A DNA stretch of 64,000 nucleotides from Flavobacteriaceae bacterium PS02337 (GTDB lineage: Bacteria > Bacteroidota > Bacteroidia > Flavobacteriales > Flavobacteriaceae). The stretch is taken from assembly GCA_029959285.1 (NCBI GenBank), contig JASCOE010000017.1:34666-98665 (forward strand). Reading direction: 5' to 3'. Shown piece after piece: positions 12,724-16,408 of this stretch. Every line of letters starts with the position of its first letter. The first letter of the stretch is position 1. The notes below the pieces were generated by a model that saw nothing but the letters and a program-made list of their open reading frames with translations, was not told the origin of the DNA and made no database searches. The position numbers and the translations under genes are program-made.

Positions 12724-13455
12724 ATGAAACTAACAAATAAAAGTACCATTGGCGAAATCGTAGCAGATGATTTCAGAACAGCTGCCGTTTTTACAAAATA
12801 CCATATTGATTTTTGCTGTAAAGGATTTCGAACTATTGAAGAAGTTTGCAAGAAAAGAGATATTGATGAAACTGTTTTGATAGAATATATTCTAGATGCA
12901 AAAAAAAATACAGCCAATCAATCTTTCGATTATAAAACTTGGCCCGTTGATGTAATTACAGATTATCTCACTAAAACGCATCATCGTTATATTAATGAAA
13001 AAGCGCCTATTATTATTCAATATCTAACCAAATTAGCTGGAGTTCATGGTGCTATTCATCCTGAATTGCATGAAATACATACTATTTTCTCAAAATCTTT
13101 TTTGGATTTAAAAGCACATTTAAATCGAGAAGAAACAGTTGTTTTTCCTTTCATTATAAAAATGAAAAATGCCCAAAGCAAAGGAACTGATTTAGATATA
13201 CCGCCTTTTTTAAGTATCGAAAATCCGATTGCAACGTTAAAAGAAGATCATGAAGTAGAAAGTGAACGCTTTAGAAGAATCGCAGCTTTAACCAACAATT
13301 ATACGCCGCCAACAGAATCTTGCAATACGTATAAAGTCGCTTTTGCAATGTTGGAAGAATTTGAAAAAGATTTAAGAAAACACATTCATTTAGAAAATAA
13401 TATCCTTTTCCCGAAAGTAATTGAACTGGAAAAAACTTTTGAAAAAGTACTGTAA
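12724..13455 (+). CDS. ric: iron-sulfur cluster repair di-iron protein (Ric/ScdA/YtfE)
   Basis: This 243-residue protein has the ScdA_N (DUF542) domain at about residues 1-60, with FTKYHIDFCCKG carrying the conserved Cys pair, then a hemerythrin-like four-helix domain. Candidate di-iron ligands are in THHRYINEKAP, HPELHEIH, LNREETVVFP, KEDHEVESERF and RKHIHLENNILFP. Ric proteins restore Fe-S clusters damaged by nitric oxide or oxidants. Its place between nadB (NadA has a labile cluster) and the class III reductase (whose activase has one) fits repair of the operon's own enzymes. It ends 11 bp before nrdD. Confidence 0.95.
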   Translation: MKLTNKSTIGEIVADDFRTAAVFTKYHIDFCCKGFRTIEEVCKKRDIDETVLIEYILDAKKNTANQSFDYKTWPVDVITDYLTKTHHRYINEKAPIIIQYLTKLAGVHGAIHPELHEIHTIFSKSFLDLKAHLNREETVVFPFIIKMKNAQSKGTDLDIPPFLSIENPIATLKEDHEVESERFRRIAALTNNYTPPTESCNTYKVAFAMLEEFEKDLRKHIHLENNILFPKVIELEKTFEKVL

Positions 13456-13466
13456 ATATATTTAGG

Positions 13467-15590
13467 ATGGAAAAATATGTAATAAAACGCAATGGAGATT
13501 ATAAGCCTTTTGAAGCTTATAAAATTCAGGATGCAATTCAAAAAGCTTTTCAAAGCGTCAATAAACCTTTCGACAAAAAGATTTACAAAATTGTGCTTTC
13601 TGGTTTAGAAGTCAAATATTCGTGGCCTGTTGAAGAAATTCAGGATATTATTGAGCGTGTTCTTTTTGAAAATGGCTATTTCCAAACCATGCGTTCGTTT
13701 ATTGTTTACCGCCATACCAGAAAATTACAGCGCGAACATATTAACGGTTTAAATGATGACACAACATATATAGACAGTACGCAAACTGTTGAAGAATACA
13801 TAAACCAGTCTGATTGGCGAATCAATGCGAATGCGAATATTTCCTATTCAAATGCGGGATTAGTCAGCAATACCGCAGGAAAAGTGATCGCCAATTATTG
13901 GCTGGATAAAATATACAATAAAGAAGAAGGTTCTGCTCATAGGAATGGCGACATACACATTCATGATTTGGATTGTCTTACCGGATACTGCGCTGGTTGG
14001 AGCCTGCGAGTGCTATTAAATGAAGGTTTTAATGGCGTTCGAGGACGTGTCGAGAGCAGACCTCCTTCTCATTTTAGAGAAGCTTTGGGGCAAATGGCTA
14101 ATTTCTTGGGAATTTTACAAAGCGAATGGGCTGGCGCTCAAGCTTTCAGTTCTTTTGATACTTATCTGGCGCCTTATGTTTTTAAAGATCAGCTTTCTTA
14201 CGAAGAAGTTTTAAAAGCAATTAGAAGTTTTGTTTATAATTTGAATGTGCCTGCGCGTTGGGGACAATCGCCTTTTACGAATATTACATTAGATTGGAAT
14301 GTTCCAGAAGATTTGAAAGAACAAATTCCGACTCAAAATAACGAACATTTATTCTCCAAAATAAAAGATAAAAATTTAGTTGATGAAGCTAAAAAAAGAG
14401 GCGTTGAAAAACTAGTCGATTTAAAATATGCCGATTTTCAGAAAGAAATGAATCTGATCAATAAAGCGTATTATACAATTATGACGGAAGGCGATGCCAA
14501 CGGACAGCCGTTTACGTTTCCGATTCCGACCGTGAATATTACGGAAGATTTTGATTGGAATGGAGAAAATGTTGATTTGTTATTTGAAAATACAGCCAAA
14601 ATCGGTTCGTCTTATTTTCAGAATTTTATTGGAAGCCAATATATTTTGGATGAAAAAGGAAATCGAATTGAAAATCCAGAAGCGTACAAACCAAATGCAG
14701 TTAGAAGTATGTGCTGCCGATTGCAACTCGATTTGAGAGAATTATTAAAACGAGGAAACGGACTTTTTGGAAGTGCAGAAATGACGGGAAGTATTGGCGT
14801 TGTTACGATTAATATGGCACGTTTGGGTTATTTGCACAGAGGAAATATCATCAATTTGTTTGCTCATTTAGATGAATTACTAAAAATCGCTAAATCGACT
14901 TTAGAAAAGAAAAGAGTTTTTATTCAGCAAATGTATGATCGTGGATTGTATCCGTATACGAAACGTTACTTAGAACATTTTAGAAATCATTTTTCGACAA
15001 TTGGCGTAAACGGAATGAACGAAATGGTGATTAATTTTTCTGAGGGAAAACAGAATATTACGTGCAGTTCGGGAATTCATTTTGCTACTGAAATTCTAGA
15101 TCATATTCGATTAAGAATGAAAGAATTTCAAGAAGAAACGGGAAATCTTTACAATCTAGAAGCAACTCCTGCCGAAGGAACAACGTATCGTTTTGCGAAA
15201 GAAGATAAAAAGCGTTTTCCAGAGATTTTGCAAGCGGGGCAAAACGAGAATATTTATTATACCAATAGTTCACAAATTCCGGTAGATTATACCGATGATC
15301 CTTTTGAGGCTTTGCTGCTTCAAGACGAATTGCAATGCAAATATACTGGCGGTACAGTTTTGCATCTTTATATGAGAGAAAAAATAAGCAGTCCAGAAGC
15401 TTGTAAAAACTTCGTAAAGAAAGTTTTAACCAACTTTAAATTGCCTTACATAACCGTAACACCAATTTTCAGCATTTGCCCAATTCATGGTTATCTGAAT
15501 GGAGAACATGAATATTGTCCGAAATGTGACGAAATTTTACTTCAAAAAAACAATCAAAAACACTTGGCTTATGAAAACAAAAACGCATAA
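13467..15590 (+). CDS. nrdD: anaerobic ribonucleotide reductase catalytic subunit lacking its glycyl radical domain
   Basis: This 707-residue class III reductase makes deoxyribonucleotides without oxygen. It has an ATP-cone (about 1-90), the GDIHIHDLDCLTGYC motif (Cys170, Cys174), SMCCRLQLDL, and the GSIGVVTINMARLGY strand. The C-terminus keeps the zinc site (Cys671, His674, Cys684, Cys687 in the ICPIHGY and YCPKCD patches) but stops 20 residues later without the expected R-V-x-G-Y glycyl radical motif. That motif is in an overlapping frame at 15571-15738. The body of the protein is otherwise intact, so the gene is split rather than decayed. Confidence 0.93.
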   Translation: MEKYVIKRNGDYKPFEAYKIQDAIQKAFQSVNKPFDKKIYKIVLSGLEVKYSWPVEEIQDIIERVLFENGYFQTMRSFIVYRHTRKLQREHINGLNDDTTYIDSTQTVEEYINQSDWRINANANISYSNAGLVSNTAGKVIANYWLDKIYNKEEGSAHRNGDIHIHDLDCLTGYCAGWSLRVLLNEGFNGVRGRVESRPPSHFREALGQMANFLGILQSEWAGAQAFSSFDTYLAPYVFKDQLSYEEVLKAIRSFVYNLNVPARWGQSPFTNITLDWNVPEDLKEQIPTQNNEHLFSKIKDKNLVDEAKKRGVEKLVDLKYADFQKEMNLINKAYYTIMTEGDANGQPFTFPIPTVNITEDFDWNGENVDLLFENTAKIGSSYFQNFIGSQYILDEKGNRIENPEAYKPNAVRSMCCRLQLDLRELLKRGNGLFGSAEMTGSIGVVTINMARLGYLHRGNIINLFAHLDELLKIAKSTLEKKRVFIQQMYDRGLYPYTKRYLEHFRNHFSTIGVNGMNEMVINFSEGKQNITCSSGIHFATEILDHIRLRMKEFQEETGNLYNLEATPAEGTTYRFAKEDKKRFPEILQAGQNENIYYTNSSQIPVDYTDDPFEALLLQDELQCKYTGGTVLHLYMREKISSPEACKNFVKKVLTNFKLPYITVTPIFSICPIHGYLNGEHEYCPKCDEILLQKNNQKHLAYENKNA

Positions 15591-15738
15591 AGTTTTAGCA
15601 GAACACAAAAACGAAAGAAGCAAATGTTTGGTTTATACCCGCGTAATGGGATATCACAGACCTGTAGAAAGTTTTAATATTGGAAAAAAAGGTGAACATC
15701 AACAACGCAAACATTTCGAAGAAACCATTATCTACTAA
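15571..15738 (+). CDS. separate glycyl radical domain (tail) of the anaerobic ribonucleotide reductase
   Basis: This 55-residue frame starts at an ATG inside the last 20 bases of nrdD, in the +1 frame, and ends inside nrdG. It contains CLVYTRVMGYHRPV followed by a lysine-rich tail, the C-terminal glycyl radical signature (Gly27) that normally ends NrdD. By analogy with GrcA/YfiD, which supplies a spare radical domain to pyruvate formate-lyase, it would dock on NrdD and carry the radical made by NrdG. About 40 residues separate CPKC from RVMGY if the two frames are joined, against roughly 10-20 in usual fused proteins, and the tail has its own ATG; both argue for an evolved split rather than a base error. 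Confidence 0.85.
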   Translation: MKTKTHKVLAEHKNERSKCLVYTRVMGYHRPVESFNIGKKGEHQQRKHFEETIIY

Positions 15739-16408
15739 AGGAATATTTAGCCTCACGCCTTTTACTTTATTAAATTATCCGCATAAAACGGCCTGCATAG
15801 TGTGGTTTGCGGGCTGTAACATGCGGTGTTTATACTGCTACAATCCAGAAATTGTTTTAGGAAAAGGAAAAATAGATTTTCAAACTGTTTTGAATTTTCT
15901 AAAAACACGTAAAGGATTATTGGACGGAGTAGTTTTAAGTGGCGGCGAATGTACTTTACACCATAAAATAATTGATTTTATAAAAGAAATCAAAGCAATG
16001 GGATTTGCAGTCAAAATTGACACCAACGGTTCCAATCCTAAAATATTGAATAGCCTGATTCGTAATCGATTAATTGATTATGTCGCGTTAGATTATAAAA
16101 GTCTTCCTCATACCTTTAAAAAACTAACGCAATCAGGCTTATTTTCAGAATTTGAAGAAAGTCTAAAACTTTTAATTCAGTCAGATATTCCGTTTGAAGT
16201 TCGCACGACTTTTCATTCTTCTTTAATTTCAGAATCAGATTTTGTGCAAATGATTCGATATTTAGAAACTCAAAATTTTGAAGGAAATTATTATGTTCAG
16301 CATTTTATTAATAATGTACCAACGCTTTCAAAACTAGACAGTTCGAATAAAGAAATACAATTTAAAGACTTTTCAACTTCAAAAATAAAAGTTGTTTTTA
16401 GAGAGTAA
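15680..16408 (+). CDS. nrdG: anaerobic ribonucleotide reductase activating protein (radical SAM)
   Basis: The activase uses S-adenosylmethionine and a 4Fe-4S cluster to place the radical on the glycine of the NrdD tail. The radical SAM cluster motif CNMRCLYC (CX3CX2C) follows TACIVWFAGC, and LSGGECTLH and KIDTNGSNP complete the barrel. No ATG fits: the open frame allows TTG at 15680 (242 residues) or GTG at 15692 (238 residues); I keep the longer form but the GTG is equally likely. The frame overlaps the glycyl radical tail by 59 or 47 bp, so nrdD, tail and nrdG use all three frames and are probably translationally coupled. Confidence 0.9.
   Translation: MEKKVNINNANISKKPLSTKGIFSLTPFTLLNYPHKTACIVWFAGCNMRCLYCYNPEIVLGKGKIDFQTVLNFLKTRKGLLDGVVLSGGECTLHHKIIDFIKEIKAMGFAVKIDTNGSNPKILNSLIRNRLIDYVALDYKSLPHTFKKLTQSGLFSEFEESLKLLIQSDIPFEVRTTFHSSLISESDFVQMIRYLETQNFEGNYYVQHFINNVPTLSKLDSSNKEIQFKDFSTSKIKVVFRE

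Follow-up and report, generated by a model that had tools for sequence, protein, structure and literature searches.

A probable two-polypeptide class III ribonucleotide reductase with its radical glycine on a separate small subunit

The usual picture of class III ribonucleotide reductase (RNR) is that of a single chain, destroyed by oxygen at its glycine. In Flavobacteriaceae bacterium PS02337 the gene for this chain, nrdD, stops 20 residues after the last cysteine of its zinc site and lacks the C-terminal RVxGY glycine. The motif lies instead on a 55-residue reading frame with its own ATG inside the end of nrdD and its stop inside nrdG (Table 1). Is this frame a subunit in its own right, or a piece of NrdD that is joined to the large chain or has been lost from it by error or decay? 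We analyzed the whole 64,000-nucleotide stretch of DNA that holds the locus (the window) together with related loci in bacteria, plasmids and viral contigs. Gene structure, conservation, spread and the presence of body-less tails on viral contigs and plasmids make it very likely that the enzyme consists of two polypeptides, a large NrdD (the body) and a separately translated subunit of about 55 residues with the radical Gly27 (the tail).

Table 1. Features of the split class III RNR locus, in positions of the window
Feature	Position	Strand	Remarks
Gene for a ScdA/YtfE (RIC)-type di-iron protein, upstream of nrdD	12724..13455	+	PF04405 and PF01814
nrdD, catalytic large subunit of the probable split class III RNR	13467..15590	+	707 aa; ATP-cone, barrel and zinc site, without radical glycine; PF03477, PF13597, NF006126
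Finger-loop Cys416-Cys417 (MCCR motif), presumed thiyl radical site	14712..14717	+	Invariant in 34 alignment rows; role from the passages available of PMC9669993
Zinc site CxxHG...CxxC, C-terminal end of nrdD	15477..15527	+	C671, H674, C684 and C687 invariant in 34 rows; zinc binding presumed
Probable stand-alone glycyl radical subunit (tail)	15571..15738	+	55 aa; own ATG; PF13597 positions 530-562
Arg16-x-x-Cys19 of the tail, signature of stand-alone tails	15616..15627	+	Motif counts across split and fused tails
RVMGY radical motif of the tail	15640..15654	+	Gly27 codon 15649-15651; invariant in a 13-row alignment
nrdG, NrdG2-type radical-SAM activase	15680..16408	+	TTG start, GTG at 15692 also possible; TIGR02495, 194.2 bits

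The two chains are complementary in a Pfam profile search. NrdD covers positions 2-528 of the 562 positions of PF13597 and the tail covers positions 530-562, with no overlap. The tail scores 30.0 bits (Pfam cut-off 26.2), and all its Pfam and NCBIfam matches are NrdD models. The large chain is of the PRK08270/NF006126 type with an ATP-cone (PF03477), and its catalytic domain is present (PF13597 549.9 bits, NF006126 1088.9 bits). Solved structures related to it by sequence are 8p23, 4coi, 4u3e, 9d3x and 1h78. The zinc-site and finger-loop cysteines expected of a class III RNR are found in NrdD, and from knowledge of the family we take C671, H674, C684 and C687 to be the zinc ligands. The NrdG activase expected beside such an enzyme is encoded at the locus, and the full set of class III features, including the glycine, is carried only by both chains together. 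nrdD, tail and nrdG each lie in a different reading frame; the tail shares 20 nt with the end of nrdD and also runs into the start of nrdG. The distance from the zinc CxxC to Arg24 of the tail is 112 nt in the window, compared with 24-48 nt in five fused relatives. The original prediction had described an nrdD that ends past its zinc site without the motif, a motif on a separate frame and a wider spacing than in usual NrdD proteins, and all three descriptions agree with what we found. It had also placed the glycyl radical domain as such on a separate gene. This is correct for the strand, the Gly loop and the C-terminal arm, but the zinc half remains on NrdD, so only the radical half of the domain is separate. 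The ScdA/YtfE-type gene is a probable functional neighbor of nrdD.

The division is conserved across the genus. PF13597 was matched in 91 of 250 Flavobacterium genomes, and the listed matching genomes have exactly two matches, as expected for one body and one tail, except for G000, G031, G046, G160, G210 and G221. Contig-end fragments of G247, G069, G031 and G221 were left out, and L093 is represented by its tail only. Of 89 loci read, one duplicate was removed; all 88 distinct loci are split and none is fused, which supports the evolved split that had been predicted. The frame of the tail differs from that of nrdD by 1 in 63 loci, by 0 in 20 and by 2 in 5. Its ATG, defined as the first ATG within 30 codons of the motif, lies between -29 and +278 nt from the nrdD stop, and the two genes overlap in 48 of the 88 loci. 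Among 83 distinct Flavobacterium sequences of the tail core (34 codons), 33 codon columns vary in DNA and 7 in amino acid, and the median dN/dS is 0.026, versus 0.037 for a 46-codon piece of NrdD. Strong purifying selection acts on the tail core, which is conserved far more than chance would allow. Another complete split copy is found on a different contig of the window's genome (C15:7000-11500, locus L035), where the tail is in the frame of nrdD and follows its stop. In one locus (L073, genome G139) the zinc-finger end of nrdD is doubled in tandem ahead of the tail, a trace of local duplication.

From a scan of 84,980 species genomes the best 80 of 531 relatives were kept; they come from Flavobacterium, Sphingobacterium, Mariniradius, Arthrospiribacter and metagenome-assembled genomes. 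With one duplicate removed, and L173 and L181 set aside because they have no body end, all 77 distinct loci with a readable body end among these best 80 are split (24 of the 77 repeat loci of the genus Flavobacterium). In the same best 80, NrdG is matched in 80 of 80 loci and the ScdA/YtfE-type gene in 56. Five other Bacteroidota genomes from class or phylum searches are split as well (5/5). The tail model matches 8 of 295 genomes of the window's class, always as a small ORF. It matches 22 of 395 Bacteroidota genomes, 10 with a small ORF, 11 fused in a frame of 714-805 aa and one, in G372 (E 4e-4), taken as chance because no motif was found on reading. Outside Flavobacterium the split is thus sporadic. 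It occurs in other Bacteroidota, in Alpha- and Betaproteobacteria and in Campylobacterota. None of the body ends of split loci that were read has a glycine motif.

Plasmids carry both forms. Fourteen plasmid NrdD loci were read, and 11 are split (Cupriavidus necator H16, C. metallidurans, Sulfuricurvum, Aquabacterium, Bradyrhizobium, Paracoccus, Sulfuricystis, Azospira, Shinella, Cereibacter and Thiothrix) and three fused (Actinomyces oris, Acidiphilium and Geoalkalibacter). Thiothrix is not counted as an intact gammaproteobacterial system because its body is matched in fragments and no CDS is listed for it. Where annotation is given, nrdD is the name of the small gene, and the large gene is called ribonucleoside triphosphate reductase; small plasmid genes of this kind are already named in RefSeq-based annotation, and the genome of the window is not alone in having the split. 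Three plasmid systems lie near nor, nap or nos genes, and these neighbors, together with the ScdA/YtfE-type gene, would fit a denitrifying or microaerobic life. The passages available of PMC2864759 term NrdDG essential for complete denitrification in C. necator H16, and as the H16 system is split, this is indirect evidence that the split enzyme works. On the plasmid of Azospira sp. I09 (L292), nrdD, tail and nrdG stand between the genes for the class I alpha and beta subunits in one cluster.

A tree of 48 bodies (midpoint root; the program warned of long branches) has a branch with 100/100 support. On one side are 33 split bodies, the two fused bodies of Actinomyces oris and Acidiphilium and the viral body L300, and on the other side are 12 fused bodies. 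L268, L301-L304 and L296 (probable inteins or fragments) were left out, and L316 has no body match. As the two fused NrdDs fall within a mostly split branch, at least two label changes are forced, and the tree allows either a single origin with later re-fusions or several splits. The window copy joins F. denitrificans and F. johnsoniae (100/99), while the second copy of the same genome belongs with F. succinicans and F. hiemivividum in a lineage apart from it. The F. johnsoniae locus (L146) is likewise split. A mixed alignment of bodies and tails misplaced the tails and was set aside.

The stand-alone tails share a signature. Arg-x-x-Cys precedes the radical strand in every distinct split cellular tail (49 of 49), every distinct lone viral tail (58 of 58) and both lone plasmid tails, and in none of 12 distinct fused tails (14 loci, a small set mostly from one Bacteroidota family). 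The scan patterns were TRVMGYH for viruses and CLVYTRVM for genomes, so the glycine, and Cys19 in the genome-scan set, were partly selected for; Arg16 is in no pattern. The motif count missed L226, L259, L276 and L034, and by eye L226 and L276 keep both the glycine and Arg-x-x-Cys. The best-scoring neighbor of each of the 58 lone viral tails is a split tail. Judged by their sequences, the lone viral tails are of the stand-alone (split) type. On the eight viral loci that also have a body, five tails keep Arg-x-x-Cys and three score closer to fused tails; Cys19 is missing from two of the eight and is therefore not essential everywhere.

Unexpectedly, lone tails are found on viral contigs. When IMG/VR was scanned with the alignment of tails, 80 of 137 relatives were kept (L204-L283). 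When the whole contigs were compared with PF13597, 77 of these 80 had no match to a NrdD body (none is listed as at least 90% complete), and a body was found on three, L236, L252 and L268. The body-less contigs include some of 211, 183, 176, 108 and 104 kb; a 15-bit match to PF13597 positions 503-529 on the 176-kb contig was taken as chance. L230 has no PF13597 match at all, yet its tail is readable. Of 47 tail-bearing contigs that reach 20 kb or more, 14 have a terminase of family phrog_2, and 13 of these 14 lack a body. Neighbors of the tail were collected after removal of twelve lone viral loci with identical tails (L226 and L276 were not located), giving 57 upstream and 58 downstream. Holins, endolysins, small terminases, portal, RusA, single-strand binding proteins and thymidylate synthase are among the families listed, and we claim no enrichment of lysis genes. 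In L204 and L228 a holin gene and an endolysin gene flank the tail, and in L224 it has an endolysin gene as a neighbor. Where a body is present, the tail can be 2 kb downstream of it, as in L300, or upstream of it, as in L301. Four viral bodies (L268, L301, L302 and L303) lie in frames of 818-1461 aa that match the profile in pieces, probably owing to inteins, and each has a separate tail. In L261, L263, L267 and L277 the viral tail frame has a Cys-containing stretch ahead of the tail.

Two Allochromatium plasmids, pALVIN01 (L298) and pAt1 (L299), have a tail and no NrdD body on the plasmid, and in A. vinosum the lone tail gene comes after a gene for a CHAP-domain protein. A tblastn search of 50,697 INPHARED records found no lone tail in isolated phages, the best match (E 8e-3) being the annotated NrdD of ANMV-1 virus, which argues against a frequent use of lone tails by cultured phages. 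Phages may nevertheless bring only the radical subunit and combine it with the NrdD body of their host.

For the two-polypeptide enzyme we propose that the small subunit docks beside the zinc half-domain of NrdD, so that its Gly loop would enter the barrel and place Gly27 at the MCCR finger loop. The docking draws on knowledge of the family and on the NrdD of P. copri, in which, according to the passages available of PMC11226230, the radical domain is mobile and is disordered with dATP. NrdG would abstract hydrogen from the tail glycine, and the glycyl radical of the tail would then generate the thiyl radical on the finger-loop cysteine of NrdD. Because the glycine is absent from the large chain, NrdD itself would survive an oxygen cleavage at Gly27; only the small subunit would be lost, and a new copy could take its place. 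Phages and plasmids with the tail gene alone probably supply their own copy to the host NrdD. The body-less tails on viral contigs and plasmids make the idea of a replaceable domain more plausible. The radical subunit might thus be an exchangeable cartridge, with cleaved copies replaced and with phage or plasmid copies that switch on, revive or take over the host NrdD, a proposal that we make tentatively and rate slightly below an even chance.

Other readings of the small frame have to be weighed against this. A programmed frameshift or readthrough could fuse nrdD and the tail, so that the small ORF would not be translated alone; slippage is conceivable in the window, where the overlap of the two ORFs falls on an A-rich stretch. 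However, the tails occur in all three relative frames, some gaps (up to the +278 nt given above) contain several stops, the tail stands 2 kb away from the body in L300 and upstream of it in L301, and tails are present on contigs with no nrdD match. Joining by frameshift is excluded as a general mechanism, and this reading of the small ORF is extremely improbable. The chance that the layout reflects a sequencing error or a decaying pseudogene in the genome of the window is close to nil. We found no point in its favor, and the identical layout of the 88 Flavobacterium loci, the low dN/dS of the tail and the second split copy in the genome all stand against it; with no fused locus among the 88, there is no base error that joins the frames.

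The remaining alternatives accept a separate protein and give it another role. The tail could be a spare part of the GrcA/YfiD type that only repairs damaged enzyme. The two share the logic of a separate radical domain, and to this extent the likeness in the original prediction is sound; the passages available of PMC8683613 also allow for spare parts that serve other glycyl radical enzymes. However, the body ends read in split loci lack a glycine motif of their own, and a NrdD body without glycine needs the tail at every turnover and not only after damage. The tail is thus required rather than spare, and a role in repair alone is very unlikely. The body-less viral tails could also be inhibitors or decoys that occupy the host NrdD or NrdG. 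This agrees with the lack of a partner match on their contigs, and the tails of L204 and L228, between lysis genes, could conceivably act in a late shut-off. But all 58 distinct lone viral tails keep Arg-x-x-Cys and also the radical glycine (which the scan pattern and the motif script favor), and a decoy has no obvious need for a radical residue. We consider this role unlikely.

If the enzyme is a two-polypeptide RNR, its natural split makes it possible to swap, label, activate and damage the radical subunit apart from the rest of the enzyme, and in-trans loading of the glycyl radical and repair by exchange become directly testable. Repair by exchange for enzymes other than pyruvate formate-lyase (PFL) is left open in the passages available of PMC8683613. 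Many Flavobacterium and other facultatively anaerobic bacteria encode the oxygen-sensitive part as a separate protein of about 55 residues. With their lone tails, the viral contigs hint at an auxiliary gene of roughly 150 bp, one that may direct how the host makes its DNA precursors; a function for phrog_4132 is suggested as well. Among the matches listed in the literature searched (titles, abstract starts and passages, with few subscription journals), no description of a split class III radical subunit or of phage-borne NrdD tails was found; the small tail genes are already named in public annotation.

Several known systems resemble this one in part. The tail of the window matches phrog_4132, as do three viral tails (E 5e-10 to 1e-11), a family without assigned function and with a longer profile (179 positions). 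GrcA/YfiD and the phage T4 protein Y06I, described in the passages available of PMC8683613, are likewise small separate glycyl radical proteins, phage-borne in T4. They repair PFL, which has its own glycine, whereas the NrdD body has none, and the tail belongs to the NrdD family and not to that of PFL. In the split class II RNR NrdJa/NrdJb of Pseudomonas aeruginosa (cited in the passages available of PMC9669993), a C-terminal functional region is also a separate chain, but class II enzymes have no glycyl radical. Phage nrdD genes can be fragmented too (PMC3653736 and PMC12363816, in the passages available), mostly with introns, inteins and endonucleases between the pieces; the three pieces of phiAS4 nrdD are left unexplained in those passages. 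Unlike these, the split described here has its break at one constant place before the radical strand, with no insert seen. With the class III NrdD itself it shares the barrel, the ATP-cone, the MCCR finger loop, the zinc site and NrdG, and the tail corresponds to the C-terminal end of the NrdD profile; it differs in that the radical strand, the loop and the C-terminal arm are on a separate polypeptide.
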